Shown here piece by piece: positions 47,076 through 62,446 of a stretch of 64,000 nt of DNA. A program made the translations under genes and the position numbers. How positions within the stretch are numbered: the first letter of the stretch is position 1; every line of letters begins with the position of its first letter. The stretch is taken from contig NZ_CP038452.1 in assembly GCF_004684245.1 (NCBI RefSeq), positions 1,226,796 to 1,290,795 of the forward strand, in the 5' to 3' direction. The notes under the pieces were generated by a model. It was not told the origin of the DNA, made no database searches, and saw only the letters and a list, made by a program, of their open reading frames with translations. Source of the stretch: Thermus caldilimi (GTDB lineage: Bacteria; Deinococcota; Deinococci; Deinococcales; Thermaceae).

Positions 47076-47152
47076 GCGCCCGTAGCTCAGCAGGATAGAG
47101 CGGGGGCTTCCTAAGCCCTAGGCCGGGGGTTCGAATCCCTCCGGGCGCACCA
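47076..47152 (+). tRNA. tRNA-Arg (CCT)
   Basis: Acceptor GCGCCCG pairs with CGGGCGC, anticodon CCT in loop TTCCTAA, T-arm GGTTCGAATCC, CCA encoded. It is directly followed by an integrase module, and tRNA 3' ends are common integrase targets. A partial copy of its 3' end occurs at 48770-48790. Confidence 0.95.
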
Positions 47153-47164
47153 AGGCCAGAACGC

Positions 47165-47202
47165 AAAGCTTCCCCCCTCGGTAGTGAGGGGGGAAAGCTT
47201 TT
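47165..47202 (+). terminator. Terminator after tRNA-Arg
   Basis: AAAGCTTCCCCCCTC pairs with GAGGGGGGAAAGCTTT (one bulge) around GGTAGT, followed by TTTTG. It ends the tRNA transcript and stands between the tRNA and the integrase region. Confidence 0.75.
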
Positions 47203-47288
47203 GACCCCCATTTTTGACCCCCAAAGGAAAGTGAAGGTGCCCTCCTGACCCCCAAAACCTGGAGCCTGACCCCTAAAGCCTGACCCCC
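47202..47288. repeat. TGACCCC repeat cluster by the tRNA-Arg junction
   Basis: Five direct copies of TGACCCC(C/T), several extended to TGACCCCCAAA, start at 47202, 47215, 47246, 47267 and 47281. They lie between the tRNA 3' end and the integrase stop codon, where arm-type binding sites of tyrosine integrases are often found. Confidence 0.65.
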
Positions 47289-47324
47289 GCCCCTCCCCGG
47301 GGGCGGGGGCTCCTCAGGCCCGGG

Positions 47325-48467
47325 CTACGCCTTGGGCCGGGGGCGGGAAAGCAGGTCCTCGGGGTCCACTACCCAGGCTTGCCGCTCATGCCCCAGAAGA
47401 TGGCGGTAGACATTGAGGGTAATGCTGGGGTTGGCATGCCCCATGCGCTCAGATACCAGCTCAAGGGGCGCTCCATTCGCAAGGAGGAAGGAGCCGTAGC
47501 TATGGCGCAGGTCATGCACCCGCAAGCGGGGGATGCCCAGCCGGGCGGCGATCTTCCGAAGGGCGTGATTGAGCGAGTGAGGGTTCAGGGGCCGGGAGGG
47601 GTCTTTGCCCGGGACCACCCAAAGCTCCTTGGCCTCCTCGGGCCGGAAGCCCTCCTCCAAGAGGGCCTCCCACCGGGCCCGCAAGCGCTCCAGGGTGCCC
47701 TTGGGCACCGGGAGGGTCCTCCGGGCGGAAGAGGTCTTGGGCTCGGTAAGGGTGCCCTTGCCCCCTAAGGCGGTCCAGGCCCGGCGGATGGTGAAGGTGC
47801 CCGCCTCAAGGTCAATGTCCCCCCACTTCAGGGCCAGGGCCTCCCCGGCCCGCAAACCCAGGGCCAGGCAAAGCCTGAGGGCAAGCCCCACCCCGGGGGT
47901 GGGCCAGGCGTCAAAGGCCCGGAGGAGGGCTTCCGCCTCCTCGGGCTCCAGGGCCCGGCCCGCCTTGGTGCGGGTGGGCGCTTCTATCCGGATGGCGGCG
48001 GTGGGGTCCCGGGCGATAACCTCATGGGCCAAAGCCTCTTTGAAGACGGCCCGCACCCGCTCCAGCACCTTCTTGAGCGTCCTGGGGGAAAGCCCCTTTT
48101 TCGCTAAGGCGTCCAGCATCCGGCGGATATCCAAAGGCTTGACCGCTTGCAGGCGGAGGGGGCCTATGTAGGGGAGGGCATAGGCAATCTCACGGCGGTA
48201 GGCCCTTAGGGTAGTGGCCCCCCTGGTCAAGGCCTTGCGGCCAAGCCACTCCTCCGCGGCCTGGGCAAAGGTCATGGCCGAAGGCTGGGGAAGAAGCCCC
48301 TTTTGGGCCTTGAGCTCAAGTTCCCTACCCTTCTTCAGGGCCTCTTCCGCGGTACGGCCAAACACACTCACCCGCCGCAACCTCACCCCGCCTTCGTCCT
48401 TCACATAGAAGCGGTACTCCCACCGCCCATCTTTCCGCTTCCGAGGCTTCCCGCCGCGCTTAGGCAT
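47325..48467 (-). CDS. Tyrosine recombinase/phage-type integrase
   Basis: A 380-residue integrase. The N-terminus is an AP2-like arm-binding domain (RKDGRWEYRFYVKDEGG), then a SAM-like core-binding domain (about 65-150), then the catalytic domain with Arg in LGLRAGEALAL (about 217), HDLRHSYGS (His/Arg, about 318-326), the HANPS motif and the nucleophile Tyr in TLNVYRHLLG (about 353). The ATG at 48467 overlaps the upstream small gene by eight bases. Placed beside tRNA-Arg it probably catalyses integration there. Confidence 0.9.
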   Translation of the reverse strand: MPKRGGKPRKRKDGRWEYRFYVKDEGGVRLRRVSVFGRTAEEALKKGRELELKAQKGLLPQPSAMTFAQAAEEWLGRKALTRGATTLRAYRREIAYALPYIGPLRLQAVKPLDIRRMLDALAKKGLSPRTLKKVLERVRAVFKEALAHEVIARDPTAAIRIEAPTRTKAGRALEPEEAEALLRAFDAWPTPGVGLALRLCLALGLRAGEALALKWGDIDLEAGTFTIRRAWTALGGKGTLTEPKTSSARRTLPVPKGTLERLRARWEALLEEGFRPEEAKELWVVPGKDPSRPLNPHSLNHALRKIAARLGIPRLRVHDLRHSYGSFLLANGAPLELVSERMGHANPSITLNVYRHLLGHERQAWVVDPEDLLSRPRPKA

Positions 48468-48687
48468 CCTCCCCCTCCCGCAAGTAGCCCAGGGCCTCGA
48501 GGCCTGCTTCCACCACCCGCCCCCGCTCCTTGGCGGAAAGGGCCTTGAAGAGGCGCAAGGCGGCCTCTTCCCCGCGAACATAAACCCTCAAGCCTGCTTC
48601 CCCCGGCCCCAAGGGCTCCTGGCCCAGCCGGGCGGCCAGCACTTCCTTGGGCGGGCGGTTCCGTATCAAATGCTCCCCTCTTGGCAT
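48460..48687 (-). CDS. Small protein upstream of the integrase
   Basis: A 75-residue, charged, mostly helical protein with no recognised domain. The end reads ALSAKERGRVVEAGLEALGYL, a helix-turn-helix-like stretch. It overlaps the integrase start by eight bases and is preceded by two palindromes, so it may be a directionality factor or regulator of the integrase. That is inference from position. Confidence 0.5.
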   Translation of the reverse strand: MPRGEHLIRNRPPKEVLAARLGQEPLGPGEAGLRVYVRGEEAALRLFKALSAKERGRVVEAGLEALGYLREGEDA

Positions 48688-49113: not shown

Positions 49114-49839
49114 CTACCGGCTGCCGGGCTCCGCTTTGCCGCACAGCTCAACGGCCCGCCGCACCGCCACCGCCCCGGCCCGGAGCTCCTCCTCCGTGGG
49201 CGGGCGCAGGAAGAGGAGCTGGATCCGGAGGAGGAGGCGGTGAAGGGGAGAATGGGGGCGGGAGCGTGCCCAACCGCGAAGCTGGTCTCCCAAGGCAAGG
49301 GCCAGAGGAAGAACGCCTACCGGGGGCAGGACCAGGAAAAGGGGGATAGCCACCAGGGCGGCAGCGGCGAAGAGCACGGAGCCGCAGGCCCAGCTCCAGT
49401 CGGTAACCTCCTCGGCCAGGTAGCGGTAATCGTCCTCCCAGCGCTCCCCGTCGCACCAGCGGGCCACGGCCTCGAGGACCCGGTGCTCGAGGGCGTGGTG
49501 GCGGAGAACCTGAGGAAAGGGTTGCAGAACGGCGGTCCAGAAGGCGAGGACAAGGAGCGGCATTAGAGCGTACTCGGGGCGGGACGGCCCCGCCCACCAG
49601 AGGGTGCTGAGGGCGAAGAGGGCAGTCAGGAGCAGGAGGAGGTTGGGGTTCTCGGAAAAAGCGGAGGTGGAGCGCACGGTGGCCGCTGCCTGCCAGCCCT
49701 CCTTCCCCTTGCGCAAGACAATGCGGACGGCTTTTCCTTCGCTCAGGATCACCTCGCCGAAGAAGCCCCAGAGGCGCGCGCCGCCCGTGAGGGCCACCGC
49801 CCGCTTGGGGCTCCTCTTCTCCAAACCCTGGGCCTGCAT
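49114..49839 (-). CDS. Membrane protein, possibly DUF1385-like
   Basis: A protein of about 241 residues with a soluble N-terminus (ARLWGFFGEVILSEGKAVRIVLRKG), two membrane helices (about 67-105), a HHALEHRVLEAVARWCDGE segment, further helices (about 150-185) and a basic C-terminus. The alternation and the AxEHRVLEA piece recall DUF1385 (YqhQ) proteins, but only weakly. The start is uncertain; the ATG at 49839 is used. It diverges from the repeat-rich exported protein gene with almost no space between. Confidence 0.5.
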   Translation of the reverse strand: MQAQGLEKRSPKRAVALTGGARLWGFFGEVILSEGKAVRIVLRKGKEGWQAAATVRSTSAFSENPNLLLLLTALFALSTLWWAGPSRPEYALMPLLVLAFWTAVLQPFPQVLRHHALEHRVLEAVARWCDGERWEDDYRYLAEEVTDWSWACGSVLFAAAALVAIPLFLVLPPVGVLPLALALGDQLRGWARSRPHSPLHRLLLRIQLLFLRPPTEEELRAGAVAVRRAVELCGKAEPGSR

Positions 49840-49878
49840 GGAAGCATCATAGCCCTGCAGTCGGTCTCCCCGGCCCAA

Positions 49879-50616
49879 GTGTCGGTGAAGTCCTACGACA
49901 CCTCAACGGTGTCCGCCGCCTACTCCGGCCCCCTGCCGGGCACCCTGTGCGAGGACGGAAGCTGCCGCCAGGTCGCCCCCGGGGCCTACACTGCCCCCGC
50001 TTCCCAGCTCCTCCGCACCTACACTCAGACCCGCACGGAAAGTTGCCCCTCCGGCTACACCGGGAGCGTCACCGTCACCGAAACCTGGCAGGACTGGAAG
50101 GTCTGGAGCCCGGACGTGGTGGGGGTGTCCTCGAGGGGGACGGCGGGGTTCACCTCGAGGGTGGAGAGCCGGCTGGTGAACACGAGCACACAGAATAACT
50201 GTGAGTTGATAAGAGAGCCACCAGAGCCGCCCACACAAACCACCCAGACGACAGACCCCAGCAACCAGACGACAGACCCCAGCAACCAGAGCACGAACCC
50301 CAGCAACCAGAGCACAGACCCTTCGCAATCCACGCTAGATCAACCCACTACCACGCTAGATCAACTTACCACGTTAGATCAACTTACCACCCAAACAAAC
50401 ACGGATGCCTCCCAAAGCAACGGGAACCAGGACGACGGAGGTGGGGAGGGAGGGCTGGACCTCCAGGTCACCAGTAGCGGAACGGGCAAGTGGATCTGGC
50501 TCCCTCAGCCAATGCCGGAGAAGGGCTTGTCCACCGCCTCTGGCAGGAAGCGCTGGTCGGAGAGGAGGAAGGAGGAGATCGCAGAGAGCCTCCTTACCCG
50601 GCGCTTCCTCTGGTGA
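49879..50616 (+). CDS. Exported repeat-rich protein of unknown function, likely 5'-truncated
   Basis: A frame of 245 residues from a GTG. The first 110 residues form a domain with a paired-Cys segment (CEDGSCRQ) and aromatic strands. Then comes a low-complexity Thr/Asn/Gln/Ser/Pro linker (about 112-190) built from 7-residue and 6-residue repeats, and a basic tail. Codons upstream in the same frame look like the end of a signal peptide (IALQSVSPAQ), but no start codon is in reach. The gene may therefore have lost its true N-terminus to the adjacent inverted gene. Function unknown. Confidence 0.5.
   Translation: MSVKSYDTSTVSAAYSGPLPGTLCEDGSCRQVAPGAYTAPASQLLRTYTQTRTESCPSGYTGSVTVTETWQDWKVWSPDVVGVSSRGTAGFTSRVESRLVNTSTQNNCELIREPPEPPTQTTQTTDPSNQTTDPSNQSTNPSNQSTDPSQSTLDQPTTTLDQLTTLDQLTTQTNTDASQSNGNQDDGGGEGGLDLQVTSSGTGKWIWLPQPMPEKGLSTASGRKRWSERRKEEIAESLLTRRFLW
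50248..50388 (+). repeat. Two in-frame minisatellites (21 nt and 18 nt)
   Basis: Units of 21 nt (core ACAGACCCCAGCAACCAG) start at 50248, 50269 and 50290, with a partial fourth at 50311. Next come units of 18-21 nt (core ACGCTAGATCAACTTACC) at 50332, 50353 and 50371. Both keep the reading frame of the exported protein, encoding the Thr/Ser/Asn-rich linker. Confidence 0.85.
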
Positions 50617-50643: not shown

Positions 50644-51702
50644 ATGTTCTTGGAGGTGAGGAAGCAGATGGTTCAAGTGGCGCGCATCCGTTGGCTGGTC
50701 CAGATGGGCGTTGCCCTGAGCATCCTTGGGGCGCAGGCAGCCTCGGCCATCACCTGGCAGGAGGGCTGGAACCTGGTGGTGCGAGTGGAGCGGGGGGACC
50801 AGGAGGCGGCCAAGTACCTGATCGACGCCTACAACCAGGGGGACCCCGACGCGGGCACGGCCATCGGGGTCCTCTACCTGAACGGCGTGGCCTACCCCAG
50901 GGACCTGGGAAGGGCCAAGAGCTACTTTGACTGGGCCCGTTCGCGGGGAAGCGGCTGGGCCAGCGCCATGCTGGTGGTGCTCCACGGGAACGGGTATGGC
51001 GTTCCGGCGGACGATAAGCTAGCCTTGACCTTCGCGGACGAGGCTGCGCAGAGGGGGTACCCCGGGGGCAGAACCCTCCAAGCCCGGGGAACGTTGCTCG
51101 GCTTGAGGGGGCGTCCTTCACAGGAGCAGCTGGCGGCGAGCGCAGCCGCCATCCAGGCGGGTGCGGCCCAGGGGGAGCCCATCAGCCTCTCCGCCCTGGC
51201 CCGGCTCTACTTCACCGGCTTCCCCCCCGGCAACATCCCCAAGGACTGGGCCAAGGCCCGGGCGCTTTGGGAAGAGGCCATGGGCAAGGGCTACCTGCTC
51301 GCGGGGAACTTCCTCATTGCCATGTACTACTACGGCTACGGCGGGCCTGCCGACCAGGCCAAAGCCATCGCCTTAGCAAAGCGGCTGGCGGGGCTGGACC
51401 TCTTCGGGGAAGCCTTTCTCGCCACCGCCTACTACTTCGGGGTGGCCGGGGAGCCTCAGGACCCGAAGAAGGCATGCCCCTTGGCCCAGAAGACCCGTGA
51501 GTACGTTCAGGGTATGGCCATCTACGCCCTCTGCCTCCTCGAGGGGCACCTGCCGGGCGGCCGGGCCCAGGGCTACGCCTGGCTCCTGAAGGCCGCCGCT
51601 GGTGGGAACGACCTGGCCAAGTCCCTGGCCCCGGAGTGGGAGAAGCGGCTGACCAAGGAAGAGGTCGATGAGGCCAAGCGCCTCCTCCCTAACCTCAAGT
51701 AG
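50644..51702 (+). CDS. Exported Sel1-like repeat protein
   Basis: A 352-residue protein with a signal peptide (about residues 10-35, cut after ASA). The mature part is a row of Sel1-like repeats, helical hairpins of about 36 residues with patterns such as DAGTAIGVLYLNGVAYPRDLGRAKSYFDWA and AYAWLLKAAAGGNDLAKSL. These are protein-binding scaffolds. A MVQVARIRWL start eight codons in is a fair alternative. Its end overlaps the HTTM-DCC gene by 35 bases, suggesting joint expression. Confidence 0.8.
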   Translation: MFLEVRKQMVQVARIRWLVQMGVALSILGAQAASAITWQEGWNLVVRVERGDQEAAKYLIDAYNQGDPDAGTAIGVLYLNGVAYPRDLGRAKSYFDWARSRGSGWASAMLVVLHGNGYGVPADDKLALTFADEAAQRGYPGGRTLQARGTLLGLRGRPSQEQLAASAAAIQAGAAQGEPISLSALARLYFTGFPPGNIPKDWAKARALWEEAMGKGYLLAGNFLIAMYYYGYGGPADQAKAIALAKRLAGLDLFGEAFLATAYYFGVAGEPQDPKKACPLAQKTREYVQGMAIYALCLLEGHLPGGRAQGYAWLLKAAAGGNDLAKSLAPEWEKRLTKEEVDEAKRLLPNLK

Positions 51703-53437
51703 GCGCTCCCCCCTCGAGGGCCTCCGCCCCTACCTGCTCCATCCCCTGGCCCTGGCCCCGGGGGGGCTCTTCCTCTTCCGGGCGGGGTTGGGCCTGGTCC
51801 TCCTGCAGGACCTCCTGCGGATGCTCCCCTGGTGGGGGGCCTTCTTCTCCGACGGGGGCCTCCTCTCCCGGGACCAGGTGATGGGCCTCTCCCCTCCCCG
51901 GGTGCCCCTCTTCTTCGGGGGGGAGGCGTGGAACGCCGCCCTCTACGGCCTCCTCATCCTCCTGGCCCTGGCCTACACCGTGGGCTTCCGGGCCCGCTGG
52001 ACGGGCCTCCTGGCGGGGGTGCTGGCCCTGGGGCTCATGGACCGCAACCCCTGGCTCTGGAACACGGGGCACCAGCTGGTGCCCGCCTTCCTGCTCCTCT
52101 CCACCCTCCTGCCTCTGGAGGCGGGCTACGGGTGGGACCGGGCCCTCCTGCGGCGGGCTCCGCCCCCCGCCCTGGTGAGCCTGGGGGCCCTGCCCTTCCT
52201 GCTCGTCCTCTTCGCCGCCTACCTGGTGAACGCCGCCGCCAAGGACCTGGGGAGCTACTTCCTCCGGGGGGATGCGGTGGCGGGGGCCCTGGTGAGCTCC
52301 CACGGCTCGGTGCTGGGGGTGCTGCTGATGGAGCGGCTCCCCGGGCTCCTGCCCTGGCTTTCCCGCTACACCTTCCTGGTGGAGGCGGGGGCACCCTTCC
52401 TCCTCTTCCTGCCCTTCTGGCCCCTGAGGCTCTTGGGAGTCCTCCTCCTCATGAGCCTGCACGTGGGCTTTGCCCTCTTCCTGGACGTGGGCCACTTCCC
52501 CTTCGTCATGCTCTCCGCCCTCTCCCTCCTCCTCCCGCCCCAGGTCTTCGCCCGGCTCCCCGCCCCCAGGCTCCCCCAGGCGGTGGTGCACTACGACGGG
52601 GCCTGCGGCTTCTGCAAGCGGGTGTCGGAGGTGCTTCGGGGGCTTCTCCTGGCGCGGGCGGAGATCGTCCCCGCGGAAGGGGAGGCCCTGGCCCTGATGG
52701 AGGCCCGGCGGAGCTGGGTGGTGGAGGTGGAGGGGCGTCGGTACACGGAGGGGCGGGGCTTCCTGGGCCTCCTCCTGGCCTCCCCCTTCCGCCCTCTGGC
52801 CCTCCTCTGGCGGCTCCCCGGCTTCCCCTGGCTGGCGGACCGGGCCTACCGCCTGGTGGCCGACCGCAGGCCCTCCCCGGGGTGGACCCTAGCCCACCTG
52901 CCCCACCGGGAGCTCCGCCCCAACCCCCTCCCGGCGGTCCTCCTGGCCCTGGCCTTCAGCGGGGTCTACGGCTACCTGAGCTGGAAGGGCCTGGTGGAGG
53001 CCTACCGGGGGGTGCGGCCCGAGGTGTCCACCACCCTGGGGAGCCTGGGCCTGGACCTGCGCTGGGGGCACTTCGCCCCCACGCCCCCAGGCCGCAAGGA
53101 CTGGGTGCAGGCCCAGGGGGTGACGGTGGTGGGCCAGGTGGTGGACCCCTGGCGCTGGATGCTCCTGGGGGAGGCGGCCTACCGGGAGGAGGTTCCCCGC
53201 TTCCCCGTCCTCCTCTCCGGGGGGGAACACTGGCGCAAGTTCTGGTGGGGGACTTGGCGGGGCAAGCCCGCGGATGAGGCCCGCATGGAGGCCCTGGCCC
53301 TCTACCTCTGCCAGGCTTGGAACAGGAGGCACGGGGGGGCGGAGCGGCTCCACACGGTCACGGTCTACTGGGGCACCGCAGCCCCCCAGGCGGAGAGGCC
53401 CCGCCTGAAACCCATGCGCAGCGAGGTGTGCCCGTGA
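51668..53437 (+). CDS. HTTM-domain membrane protein fused to a DCC thiol-oxidoreductase domain
   Basis: A 589-residue fusion. Residues about 20-295 form the multi-helix HTTM domain, the membrane part related to vitamin K-dependent gamma-carboxylase (FRAGLGLVLLQDLL, WNTGHQLVPAFLLLSTLL). Residues about 303-420 are a DCC/DUF393 thioredoxin-like domain with its signature YDGACGFCKR (Cys near 313 and 316). A further membrane helix (about 425-448) and a soluble C-terminal domain (about 450-589) follow. The function of bacterial HTTM-DCC proteins is not established. It is coupled to the Sel1 gene and overlaps the Cys-rich gene. Confidence 0.82.
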   Translation: MRPSASSLTSSRRSPLEGLRPYLLHPLALAPGGLFLFRAGLGLVLLQDLLRMLPWWGAFFSDGGLLSRDQVMGLSPPRVPLFFGGEAWNAALYGLLILLALAYTVGFRARWTGLLAGVLALGLMDRNPWLWNTGHQLVPAFLLLSTLLPLEAGYGWDRALLRRAPPPALVSLGALPFLLVLFAAYLVNAAAKDLGSYFLRGDAVAGALVSSHGSVLGVLLMERLPGLLPWLSRYTFLVEAGAPFLLFLPFWPLRLLGVLLLMSLHVGFALFLDVGHFPFVMLSALSLLLPPQVFARLPAPRLPQAVVHYDGACGFCKRVSEVLRGLLLARAEIVPAEGEALALMEARRSWVVEVEGRRYTEGRGFLGLLLASPFRPLALLWRLPGFPWLADRAYRLVADRRPSPGWTLAHLPHRELRPNPLPAVLLALAFSGVYGYLSWKGLVEAYRGVRPEVSTTLGSLGLDLRWGHFAPTPPGRKDWVQAQGVTVVGQVVDPWRWMLLGEAAYREEVPRFPVLLSGGEHWRKFWWGTWRGKPADEARMEALALYLCQAWNRRHGGAERLHTVTVYWGTAAPQAERPRLKPMRSEVCP

Positions 53438-54141
53438 AGGGGAAGGTGTCTTTGCTGATCCTGCTTTTGGCGCTGACGGCCCTGGCCTTCGGGGTGGGCT
53501 ACGTGCTGGCCGCCCGCTACCAGCGGGGCCCGGGAGCCCCCGCCTACCGCCAGGGCCAGGGGTTGGCCTTCCTGCCCCCCGCCCTGGCCTCGGCCCTGTG
53601 CCGGGCCTCGGAGGGGCAGGCCCTCTGCCTGCGGGGGTACTTCGCCGCCCGCATCCCCCAGGAGGTCCAGGGCCTCCCCGAGCGGTACTGCCAGGGGCTT
53701 TCCGGCCCCGCCGCCCGGGCCTGCTCCGAGGTGATGGGCCTGCGCCTGGTGATCTTCCCCTCCTCGGTGCGGCTGTGCGAGCGCCTGCCCGACCCCGAAG
53801 CCTGCGCCCGCTACGTGGGCCGGGGGGCCTACGCCCGGGGAGGCGAGGCCAGGGTCAAGGAGGAGTGCGGGAAGGTGCGGGGCCCCCTGCTCTTTAACTG
53901 CCAGGTGGGAGCGGCCATGGAGATGGTGGAGCGGCGGCCCAAGGAGAACCTCCAGGCCGCCTGGCGCCTCTGCGAGGGGGCCAACCCCGACGGGGCGGTG
54001 TGCACCGGGGCCCTGGGAAGCGCCCTGCTCTCGGCGGTCAAGGACAGGAAGCGGGCGGAGGGCCTCTGCCTGGACCTGCCTCCCCTCCAGGCCGCCCGGT
54101 GCGCCGCCGGGGTGGAGGAGGCGGCAAAGGAAAGGCGCTGA
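53434..54141 (+). CDS. Membrane-anchored Cys-rich extracytoplasmic protein
   Basis: A 235-residue protein from a GTG that overlaps the HTTM-DCC stop (GTGA). An N-terminal membrane anchor (about 4-26) is followed by a helical domain with twelve cysteines, paired at intervals of about 6-14 residues (for example LCRASEGQALC, YCQGLSGPAARAC, LCERLPDPEAC, LCEGANPDGAVC). Even number and spacing point to disulfide-linked helical hairpins. The adjacent DCC thiol domain is an obvious candidate partner. No family recognised. Confidence 0.7.
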   Translation: MKGKVSLLILLLALTALAFGVGYVLAARYQRGPGAPAYRQGQGLAFLPPALASALCRASEGQALCLRGYFAARIPQEVQGLPERYCQGLSGPAARACSEVMGLRLVIFPSSVRLCERLPDPEACARYVGRGAYARGGEARVKEECGKVRGPLLFNCQVGAAMEMVERRPKENLQAAWRLCEGANPDGAVCTGALGSALLSAVKDRKRAEGLCLDLPPLQAARCAAGVEEAAKERR

Positions 54142-54191: not shown

Positions 54192-55580
54192 CTAGTTTGT
54201 AGGCCAGAGGTTCTCCTGGGTTTCCACCTGGAAGCGCCAGGTCTTCTCCCACACCTGGGAGCCGATCCGAGCCTTCAGGTAGACCTCGTACTCGGCCCCG
54301 GGGGTGAGGGGCTCGCGGGGAAGGACGATGACCGCCCCCAAATCGTTGAGTATCGAGAGGGCCGCGTTCCGCCAGAAGTCGCGGTCATCCCAGTACTGCA
54401 GGCTCCCGTAGGCGCAGACCGGGTTCACCGCCCCGTCGGACACCCTCACCAGCCTGGCCTCCAGGACCTCGGTGTCCGCCCGGGCGAAGGTCATGAGGGT
54501 GACGGGGAAGCCGAAGGGCCGTAGCCCGCTGGCGTTCCAGTCGATCCCCGGCTGGCTGAAGAAGGGGCGCTGCCTGGGAACTTCGGGGTGGAGGCAGGGG
54601 TAGGCGGGATTGGGGTTTTCGTAGCCGTCGAAGGAGGCCACGGGTACCCGCATCCCCGGGACGGGGAAGGGCACCTCCTGCACCCCAGGGTTCGGGGTCG
54701 ATGAGGAGGAGAAGTAGGGGAGGGTAGCCCGAGTGTGGCCGAAGATTACCCCGTTCCAGGGGAGCACGTCCCGGTAGATGCCCGAGCCCACCTGCAGGGA
54801 CCAGGGGTAGATGAGGCCGAAGCGATGGAAGGGGGCGGCGATCCACCAGTTGACCGGGCTTTGGTCCGGAGACCAAGAGGCTCGCCCGTTCTGTAGACCA
54901 AGGCTCCCCCATTCGTTGCCCACCCGCCCCGCACTCCGGCCCTCCCCGCTGGAAAAAGGTTGGGAGAGGTCCTCATCGTGGGGGAGCCTACTGGCACCGT
55001 TCATCACGCTGTACCGGCTGTGGAGCCAGCCCCGCCAGGCCCACTCCGGGTCCTCCTCCACGCCGGGGAGCCCGGCCCGGGCGCGCCACTCCCGCAGGGC
55101 AGCCACCGCCCCCTGCCCCTCGCTGGGAATGCGCAGGTACACGGGGAAGGTCCACTCCCTGCCCTTCTCGTCCACCGCCACCAGCTCCCACTTGAAGGGC
55201 CCCTGGGGCAGGGCGTCCTGGGCCACGCTGAGGGTGAAGGTGGCCTCGAGGTTGGTGGCGGTGAGGGTGAACCGCTCCCGGGTGTGCTCCACCCCGGGGT
55301 AGCGGGTGGCGTCCCAGCCGGGGCAGTAGCTCGTGCCCTTGGCGCAGGGGTCGGCCAGGCGCAGGTAGACCTCAGCACTCTCCGCCCCCTGGGCCAGGCG
55401 GACCTTCACCTGGCGGGTCTCGCCGGGGCGGGCCTCGAGGAGCTCCCCCGTCCCGGCCAGGGCCTCCACGGGGGGCCTGGGGGTCTGGACGAGGTTCTGG
55501 CAGGCGGAGAGGAGGAGGGCCAGAGCCGAGAGGGCCGCAAGGGTTAGCCGGGGCAAAGGCAAGAGGCTTTTCCTGCGCAT
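54192..55580 (-). CDS. CAP-superfamily-like lipoprotein
   Basis: A 462-residue protein with a lipoprotein signal (LALLLSAC, lipid Cys27). Residues about 45-150 form a beta-rich domain. About 160-345 resemble a divergent CAP/SCP domain (LREWRARAGLPGVEEDPEWAWRGWLHSRYSVMNG, then LPHDEDL and GNEWGSLG, where His and Glu may be the CAP ligands). The last 100 residues look like a beta-sandwich. It would be outer- or inner-membrane attached and act outside the cytoplasm. Function unknown. Confidence 0.65.
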   Translation of the reverse strand: MRRKSLLPLPRLTLAALSALALLLSACQNLVQTPRPPVEALAGTGELLEARPGETRQVKVRLAQGAESAEVYLRLADPCAKGTSYCPGWDATRYPGVEHTRERFTLTATNLEATFTLSVAQDALPQGPFKWELVAVDEKGREWTFPVYLRIPSEGQGAVAALREWRARAGLPGVEEDPEWAWRGWLHSRYSVMNGASRLPHDEDLSQPFSSGEGRSAGRVGNEWGSLGLQNGRASWSPDQSPVNWWIAAPFHRFGLIYPWSLQVGSGIYRDVLPWNGVIFGHTRATLPYFSSSSTPNPGVQEVPFPVPGMRVPVASFDGYENPNPAYPCLHPEVPRQRPFFSQPGIDWNASGLRPFGFPVTLMTFARADTEVLEARLVRVSDGAVNPVCAYGSLQYWDDRDFWRNAALSILNDLGAVIVLPREPLTPGAEYEVYLKARIGSQVWEKTWRFQVETQENLWPTN

Positions 55581-55720: not shown

Positions 55721-55981
55721 ATGGAACGGGTGCCCCTCCGCCTCCTCAAGAACCGTCTGGGCTTTTACCTGCGCAAGGTGCGCCAAGGGGAGAGCCTGCT
55801 CCTGACGGACCGGGGGAGGCCCGTGGCCCGCCTGGTACCCGAAGGCTCAGGCCTCGAGGCCCGCCTCCAGGCTCTGGCCACCTTGGGCCTTCTAGACCTG
55901 GGGGAGGGGCGGCTTCCCGACCGGGAGCCTGTGGCCTATAGCCGGGCCAGCGTGGCGGATCTCCTGGTGGAGGAGCGGTAG
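55721..55981 (+). CDS. Phd/YefM-like antitoxin
   Basis: An 86-residue antitoxin. The N-terminus reads VPLRLLKNRLGFYLRKVRQGESLLLTDRGRPVARLVP, the Phd/YefM DNA-binding fold, and the C-terminal half binds and neutralises the toxin. Its stop overlaps the GTG of the PIN toxin by one base (TAGTG). TAAGAT just upstream of the ATG may be the promoter -10 box. The pair is probably autoregulated, as is usual. Confidence 0.85.
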   Translation: MERVPLRLLKNRLGFYLRKVRQGESLLLTDRGRPVARLVPEGSGLEARLQALATLGLLDLGEGRLPDREPVAYSRASVADLLVEER

Positions 55982-56421
55982 TGGCCCCGGTGGTCTACCT
56001 GGACACCAGCGCCCTGGTCAAGCGCTACGTGGCCGAGGCGGGCAGCGACGAGGTGCGGACCCTCCTTCGCGGGGCTGAGACCGTGGGCACCGCGGCGGTG
56101 GCCCAGGTGGAGATGGCCGCCGCCCTGGCCAAAGCGGTGCGCACGGGAGCCCTGGCGCGGGAGGAGGGCCAAAGCGCCTTGGGTGCGTTCCTGGAGGACT
56201 GGCCCCGCTTGCACCGCCTGCGGGTGACCGATCTCCTCCTGGAGATGGCGCGGGACCTGGCCTGGCGGGAAGGTCTGCGGGGCTATGACGCCACCCATCT
56301 GGCCGCGGCCCTTCTCTGGCAGGAGGCCTTAGGAGAGCCTGTCCTCATGGCCACCTTTGATGTGGGGCTTTGGCGGGTGGCGGCAAAGTACCTGAAGGTA
56401 TGGCCTCCGGATATGGCTTAA
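55981..56421 (+). CDS. PIN-domain toxin (VapC-like ribonuclease)
   Basis: A 146-residue PIN nuclease with the full acidic set: Asp8 (VYLDTSALVKRYV), Glu near 43 (AAVAQVEMAAAL), Asp near 101 (RGYDATHLAAAL) and Asp near 122 (LMATFDVGLWRVA). VapC toxins cut tRNA or rRNA when freed from the antitoxin. Starts at GTG directly overlapping the antitoxin stop. The 209 bp after it show no gene. Confidence 0.87.
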   Translation: MAPVVYLDTSALVKRYVAEAGSDEVRTLLRGAETVGTAAVAQVEMAAALAKAVRTGALAREEGQSALGAFLEDWPRLHRLRVTDLLLEMARDLAWREGLRGYDATHLAAALLWQEALGEPVLMATFDVGLWRVAAKYLKVWPPDMA

Positions 56422-61770: not shown

Positions 61771-62118
61771 TCATCTCCGTATCCGCAGCCGTTTACCGTT
61801 CAGTACAGAGAAGGCACCCACCATCTCCGCTCCGTGCTCCCTCAGGGCCCAGGCCACTCGGTTCTCCTTTTCCAAAGGAGGCAGCCCCTCCAGGCGAAGG
61901 AGCAAGACCCCAGTGCTGAGGAGCCCCTGGCGAAAGACTAGCTCCCCGAAGTCCTTATCCGTGGTGAGGAGTAAAGCCCCTTCCTCCCGAGCCAAGGCCA
62001 AGACCTCGGGGTCTTTTATGCCTGGGCGCATCTCCGCCACGTAGAGAACCTCGTGCCCTTCTCCCCGGAGCCTGCCCACGATGGGGGCGTCTACCCCCTC
62101 ATCCGCCAAGAGCTTCAT
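61771..62118 (-). CDS. DUF5615 PIN-like toxin
   Basis: A 115-residue PIN-like protein: LLADEGVDAPIVGRLRGEGHEV (Asp5 in the first strand), then GIKDPEVLALAREEGALLLTTDKDFGELV with the TxDxDF motif near residue 53. This is DUF5615, usually the toxin partner of DUF433. A ribonuclease role is inferred from the fold. It overlaps the DUF433 gene by four bases (ATGA). Confidence 0.82.
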   Translation of the reverse strand: MKLLADEGVDAPIVGRLRGEGHEVLYVAEMRPGIKDPEVLALAREEGALLLTTDKDFGELVFRQGLLSTGVLLLRLEGLPPLEKENRVAWALREHGAEMVGAFSVLNGKRLRIRR

Positions 62119-62348
62119 GCCGCCTGCTCGGGGTAGAGGTAAGTCCGCTCCCCTCCTACTGCTTCCGCGGCGTAGAGGAGGGCCGCCCGTAGACCCTCGG
62201 GGGTGAGCCGGGGAAAGGCTTGGAGGATATCCTCGGGGGTTTCCCCTGCCGCCAGACGGCGCAGGATCTCCTCCACGGTGATGCGGGTGCCCGCCACCAC
62301 GGGCTTGCCGCCCATGATCTCCGGGTCCACCACGATGGCCCCTTCCAT
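62115..62348 (-). CDS. DUF433-family antitoxin
   Basis: A 77-residue protein: VDPEIMGGKPVVAGTRITVEEILRRLAAGETPEDIL, the hallmark of DUF433, with a helix-turn-helix that can bind DNA, followed by LTPEGLRAALLYAAEA. The ATG at 62348 (MEGAIVVDP) fits the family. An open frame upstream crosses the left end of the IS982-like element 14 bp away, so the original promoter has been replaced by IS sequence. Confidence 0.82.
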   Translation of the reverse strand: MEGAIVVDPEIMGGKPVVAGTRITVEEILRRLAAGETPEDILQAFPRLTPEGLRAALLYAAEAVGGERTYLYPEQAA

Positions 62349-62446
62349 GCCCTTCTTATGGTAACCCAAGTTGCCACCTACCCCCCGGCCTGAAAAAATA
62401 GCGGCCGCTATGCTGCAACAGACTATAGCGGCCTTCTGCATTATAG

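Follow-up and report, generated by a model that had tools for sequence, protein, structure and literature searches.

An overlapping Sel1, HTTM-DCC and cysteine-rich gene trio in Thermus looks like part of a modular and mobile cell-surface cassette

Why should three overlapping genes of a Thermus chromosome encode an exported Sel1-repeat protein, a membrane protein fusing an HTTM domain to a DCC1-like thiol domain (HTTM-DCC), and a membrane-anchored protein with twelve cysteines (Cys12)? The genes lie in a stretch of 64,000 nucleotides (nt) of Thermus caldilimi (the window; NCBI RefSeq assembly GCF_004684245.1, contig NZ_CP038452.1, positions 1,226,796 to 1,290,795 of the forward strand), part of a chromosome of 2.45 Mb in the genome that we call G000. 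The original prediction took them for a small, self-contained extracytoplasmic redox system, in which the fusion is the enzyme and the cysteine-rich protein its substrate. The three overlapping genes are real, as it described: the Sel1 gene runs 35 nt past the ATG of the fusion, and the fusion shares a GTGA with the GTG start of Cys12 (alternative start at 53428). No sigma-70-like promoter was found within the cassette. The coordinates of the prediction were also right, but the locus extends further on both sides, to a truncated prepilin gene and a lipoprotein gene that had been overlooked. Our analysis suggests that this trio, found on plasmids and islands beside a broken pilin gene, is a swappable kit for surface-protein maturation and not a dedicated disulfide system.

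We surveyed 50 Thermaceae genomes, 27 of which are Thermus, with homologue searches bound to the host lineage. A wider contig scan returned a single Thermus locus, and the distribution of the trio is that known within Deinococcota. Viral contigs held no relatives. Intact Cys12 occurs in 6 of the 27 Thermus genomes (G000, G044, G030, G032, G033, and G043), in addition to some fragments, and on the T. aquaticus Y51MC23 plasmid pTA78. The genes follow each other in the order Sel1, HTTM-DCC, Cys12 in G000, G032/G033, G043, and pTA78, where they overlap or nearly abut and encode proteins 42-58% identical to the window copies. These occurrences are at unrelated sites, and a neighbourhood conserved across genomes, which the original prediction had proposed as a check, was thus recovered. 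Three genomic contexts can be distinguished: a VapBC pair downstream (window, G044, and G030), a XerD-like gene upstream (G032, G043, and G029), and DUF433/DUF5615 genes upstream (pTA78, G035, and G042). The full frame, consisting of pilin tail, Sel1, HTTM-DCC, Cys12, and convergent lipoprotein, is found in the window, G032/G033, G043, and pTA78.

The same pilin and lipoprotein flanks also enclose other genes. In G026 and G035 they surround a Sel1-like protein of 310 amino acids (aa) and a multi-transmembrane (multi-TM) protein of ~515-548 aa, and in G042 yet another module. The flanks made of the DUF433/DUF5615 genes and the pilin tail are 84-89% identical in DNA among pTA78, G035, and G042, though the module of G042 differs. 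Since the same flanks enclose different middle modules, there is modular exchange within a common frame, which has a type IV prepilin-like minor-pilin gene on one side and the convergent lipoprotein on the other. The locus therefore looks like a modular, mobile, and often decaying accessory cassette tied to pili or to the cell surface. We tentatively favour a reading in which the trio serves as an exchangeable module in the middle of this cassette, with HTTM-DCC as the membrane maturation enzyme of the exported proteins of the cassette, though we hold it with less than even confidence.

Such mobility could also be that of a decaying genomic-island remnant, whose trio would be hitchhikers held together by co-transfer and devoid of joint function. 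The pilin is truncated beside all HTTM-DCC copies, an integrase gene lies beside a tRNA-Arg upstream, and the distribution is patchy. Fusion copies are broken in G035, G038 (T. parvatiensis plasmid pTP143), and G029 (T. brockianus 343-kb plasmid), while G044 has Sel1 directly followed by Cys12 without the fusion, and G030 has Cys12 with neither fusion nor Sel1. Yet intact overlapping frames were kept in three contexts at the above-mentioned identity, the cysteines are invariant, and purifying selection is seen in most comparisons. The pairwise ratios of nonsynonymous to synonymous substitution rates (dN/dS) of Cys12, the fusion, Sel1, and the lipoprotein are mostly 0.14-0.72, and 0.70-0.93 is reached in a handful of Cys12 comparisons between distant copies, most of which (three) involve pTA78 (values where dS is near or above 1 are rough). 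We regard the absence of joint function as unlikely, although worth keeping in mind.

What kind of protein is the fusion? By sequence, it is a member of the DCC1-like oxidoreductases: PF04134 scores above its cut-off (E 1e-9, 40.1 bits vs 27.8) and the domain has a CxxC, the motif CGFC being common to all Thermus fusion homologues long enough to reach it. The pTA78 homologue is named DCC1-like thiol-disulfide oxidoreductase in RefSeq. The carboxylase-like membrane domain that had been proposed to precede it would correspond to HTTM (PF05090), which is matched in six of six fusion homologues (best E 3.4e-16), the window copy itself being below the cut-off (E 1.3e-4, 22.1 bits vs 27.7). Its K192, which might correspond to a carboxylase active-site residue, is invariant in six homologues; the fusion had no PDB sequence match to a solved carboxylase. 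The C-terminal domain carries the motifs W-G-H-F-A-P and E-H-W-R-K and an invariant pair of cysteines (C548 and C588).

The DCC loop is the most positively charged loop of the fusion (21-23 K+R vs 13-14 D+E at L019 and L021), the N-terminus is also positively charged, and hydropathy indicates an even number of TM helices before the DCC domain and one after it (L019 and L021), the last one falling under the threshold in the window copy. Because of these features, the DCC/CxxC domain is predicted to be cytoplasmic and the C-terminal domain to be outside, using hydropathy and the positive-inside rule only. More distant relatives, a tandem pair of HTTM-DCC-like genes in another Deinococcota family (G050, L053:8329-12035, + strand), lack Sel1 and Cys12 neighbours. 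They have lost the CxxC and kept C548, C588, and K192. Since they keep the cysteine pair and lose the CxxC, the putative outer domain is more conserved than the thiol motif.

The cysteines of Cys12 are about ten times as many as expected. Its mature part of ~208 aa has 12, when ~1.2 are expected from the composition of the window (binomial P ~3e-9), and six homologues, the most distant of them 42% identical to the window copy, keep every one of the 12. They lie behind an N-terminal TM helix, in agreement with the initial description of a membrane-anchored protein rich in paired cysteines. The AlphaFold model, made from two sequences, has a mean predicted local distance difference test (pLDDT) of 86.6 and consists of the TM helix followed by an all-helical, TPR-like solenoid, where each Cys-x(7-10)-Cys pair spans or adjoins the turn between consecutive helices. 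Considering this predicted secondary structure and the invariance of the cysteines, we infer that Cys12 may be stapled by six intra-hairpin disulfides. The structural search gave no match at E <= 0.001 in the PDB or viral libraries, and weak TPR-like matches only. A weak Cys12 match in G109 was rejected, as it sits among fatty-acid synthesis genes. Helicobacter Hcp proteins, which are cysteine-rich and Sel1-like, are exported alpha-solenoids in which a disulfide joins the two helices of every repeat. Cys12 would resemble them as an exported alpha-solenoid with one staple per hairpin, but it lacks a Sel1 sequence signature, has no close PDB fold, and showed no relation, when profiles were compared, to the Sel1 protein next to it. 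The latter belongs, judging from its sequence, to the Sel1-repeat family (Pfam Sel1, E 1.2e-12, 48.3 bits vs a cut-off of 30.7; PDB Sel1 structures matched with E down to 7.6e-33). It has a signal-like N-terminus, as judged by inspection, and two cysteines near the C-terminus, C278 and C297, that are invariant in an alignment of six homologues.

Are these disulfides made by the fusion? HTTM-DCC could be an extracytoplasmic thiol oxidoreductase that makes or repairs the disulfides of Cys12, Sel1, and the lipoprotein. The translational coupling of the fusion with Cys12, the invariant cysteines of Cys12 (12) and Sel1 (2), the four cysteines that the lipoprotein has besides that of its lipobox, and the failure to find VKOR in the host genome all fit this idea. 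Bacterial VKOR-thioredoxin fusions combine a membrane quinone enzyme and a thioredoxin-like domain in one chain, and the Thermus fusion similarly joins a quinone-enzyme-like membrane core to a thioredoxin-like domain; however, its core is HTTM and not VKOR, and its thioredoxin-like domain is predicted to be cytoplasmic. Hence, the CxxC is not predicted to lie on the outer side, where it would be expected in an extracytoplasmic disulfide-forming enzyme. Moreover, the host genome encodes DsbB, Cys12 is intact without the fusion in G044 and in G030, where all 12 cysteines are kept and dN/dS against the window copy is 0.2-0.35, and the G050 relatives have lost the CxxC. For these reasons we think that the fusion does not make the disulfides of Cys12, and an enzyme-substrate pair of this kind, as originally proposed, now seems improbable. 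What survives of the small system is a conserved unit of an enzyme-like membrane protein and exported cysteine-containing proteins.

If the trio is instead a maturation module, the HTTM core and the outward C-terminal domain of the fusion would be the seat of the chemistry, with the cytoplasmic DCC/CxxC domain as its possible regulator or source of reducing equivalents. The likely alpha-solenoid adaptors or scaffold partners would be Sel1 and Cys12, and the six disulfides of Cys12 would probably be made by the host DsbB pathway. The original setting of the enzyme may have been the pilus, by analogy with the cassettes of P. aeruginosa and with the HTTM proteins of peptide maturation. In P. aeruginosa, pilA is accompanied by tfpO, tfpW, tfpX, tfpY, or tfpZ, and some of these accessories modify the pilin (PMC11841053). 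In both systems, a pilin gene stands before accessory membrane genes that are allele-specific and exchangeable. In Thermus, by contrast, the pilin resembles a minor pilin and its gene is almost always truncated at the 5' end, HTTM-DCC is the putative enzyme, Sel1, Cys12, and the lipoprotein are added, and the cassettes are in plasmids and islands instead of a fixed pilA locus. A multi-TM, HTTM-like core is shared with vitamin K-dependent carboxylase-like proteins and with the HTTM proteins that are among the putative modification enzymes of linaridin peptide clusters (PMC9927463), but the Thermus fusion adds the DCC and the C-terminal cysteine-pair domains, and the sequence match is moderate. 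Likewise, its CGFC domain is that of DCC1-like thiol-disulfide oxidoreductases, but embedded in a membrane protein and with a CxxC that the G050 relatives lost. The cassette is a new arrangement of known parts. HTTM-DCC fusions are annotated in databases, and the open literature searched gave us no account of what they do.

The linaridin clusters raise a further possibility, that of an interbacterial weapon or of peptide maturation, where HTTM-DCC would be an SdpB-like or linaridin-like modification enzyme, the product would be exported, and either Cys12 or the lipoprotein would serve as partner or immunity protein. Cassettes do lie among toxin-antitoxin genes on plasmids, and the pilin tips are variable. 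However, the fusion matched no NCBIfam family, SdpB included, at E up to 1, PADLOC gave no anti-phage defence match for five cassette proteins, and no small precursor open reading frame was recognised. We see little chance that this is the function of the cassette.

The flanks link the trio to the cell surface. The pilin tail of the window corresponds to aa 419-593 of the 611 of a full-length pilin (tblastn), and comprises a Cys-containing beta-type region, a Ser/Thr/Asn/Gln-rich linker, and a variable C-terminal tip. Its frame has no prepilin start, and since the prepilin N-terminus is missing the tail is probably not exported. The full-length homologue, in G026 (L099:295-2130, + strand), begins MRSRGLTLVEVLIALALFG and has a prepilin motif above the cut-offs of Pfam (N_methyl, PF07963) and NCBIfam (TIGR02532). 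By this N-terminal methylation motif, which is in the part absent from the window copy, its sequence is that of a type IV pilin. The C-terminus of this giant prepilin-like protein is a cysteine cluster (CSPPNCSCYPCWCVCKPPVCCE). Every other Thermus pilin copy found beside a cassette is 5'-truncated, at differing points, and homologous pilins at different loci have entirely different tips. The N-terminal two thirds of the pilin have no full-length homologue in the genome of the window at E <= 1e-3, and the other pilin loci of this genome carry no cassette genes. Both glycosylation and disulfide bonds are known from the pilins of Thermus (PMC7203116). On the other side, the lipoprotein has homologues in 13 Thermus genomes, including that of the window, and in a single genome from a second genus of Thermaceae. 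It has no Pfam hit (CAP included) and no PDB homologue, and a CAP/SCP-like His/Glu pattern was seen by eye only.

Several observations weigh against a maturation module serving surface proteins. The pilin is truncated next to every HTTM-DCC copy that we saw; because of this, a present-day role in pili is conjectural and the association may be ancestral. The cassette is rare, as the few genomes with intact Cys12 attest, and often decayed. Of the structure predictions called for at the outset, that of Cys12 was informative, but the AlphaFold model of the fusion, also from two sequences, was unusable (pLDDT 37.5). Finally, neither Pfam, NCBIfam, nor PDB gave a significant match for the multi-TM enzyme that the alternative module carries. 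A more speculative version, to which we give a low probability, is that these are silent mobile surface cassettes: 5'-truncated minor-pilin tails would be stored with their matching maturation module, be it this trio or an alternative one, and recombine into an expressed pilin locus, HTTM-DCC being a new kind of pilin-modifying enzyme. The pilus tip and the enzyme modifying it would then be swapped together, with the lipoprotein gene as a constant boundary.

Table 1. Positions in the window of the cassette genes and of the domains of the fusion.
Feature	Position	Strand	Description and basis
5'-truncated tail of ~611-aa type IV prepilin-like minor pilin	49846..50616	+	tblastn with full-length pilin L099:295-2130
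Sel1-repeat protein	50644..51702	+	352 aa; exported; Pfam Sel1, profile matches to Sel1/AlgK/MotX structures
HTTM - DCC - C-terminal extracytoplasmic-type domain fusion	51668..53437	+	589 aa; Pfam, homologue alignments
HTTM match within fusion (aa 87-291)	51926..52540	+	includes K192, codon 52241-52243
DCC1-like thioredoxin-like domain of fusion (aa 307-402)	52586..52873	+	CGFC at 52604-52615 (aa 313-316)
C-terminal domain of fusion, past last predicted TM helix	52988..53434	+	alignment, topology prediction
Cys12 protein: one TM anchor and six Cys-x(7-10)-Cys helical hairpins	53434..54141	+	translation, alignment, AlphaFold
Convergent lipoprotein, constant 3' flank	54192..55580	-	462 aa; lipobox LSAC; alignment

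Other features surround these genes (Table 1). Upstream, at 47076-48581, a tRNA-Arg precedes the gene of a tyrosine integrase of phage type (Phage_integrase, E 2.4e-25), likely one border of an integrated element that lies directly upstream of the cassette, and the truncation of the pilin lies against a gene at 49114-49878. Downstream, the proteins of a VapBC-like pair (55721-56421) are 97-100% identical to the copies beside the G044 and G030 cassettes, far above the conservation of the cassette. A DUF433/PIN-like pair (61771-62441) is 95-97% identical to the one beside the G030 cassette, and directly next to the pilin tail of pTA78, G035, and G042 there is a related DUF433/DUF5615 pair. In G035, a deletion (L022:1318-2349, - strand) joined the HTTM part, through CGFC, to the N-terminal half of Cys12 in one reading frame, creating an HTTM-Cys12 fusion by accident. 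A D-x-H-P-P-L-Y-Y motif led us to suspect that the multi-TM enzyme in the alternative module is a glycosyltransferase, an identity that we discarded because Pfam, NCBIfam, and PDB did not support it.

With its compact conserved operon, a genetically tractable thermophile as host, and defined candidate substrates, this locus makes the chemistry of HTTM-DCC testable. The modular pilin-tail flank ties HTTM-DCC to surface variation and provides a concrete hypothesis for its substrate.

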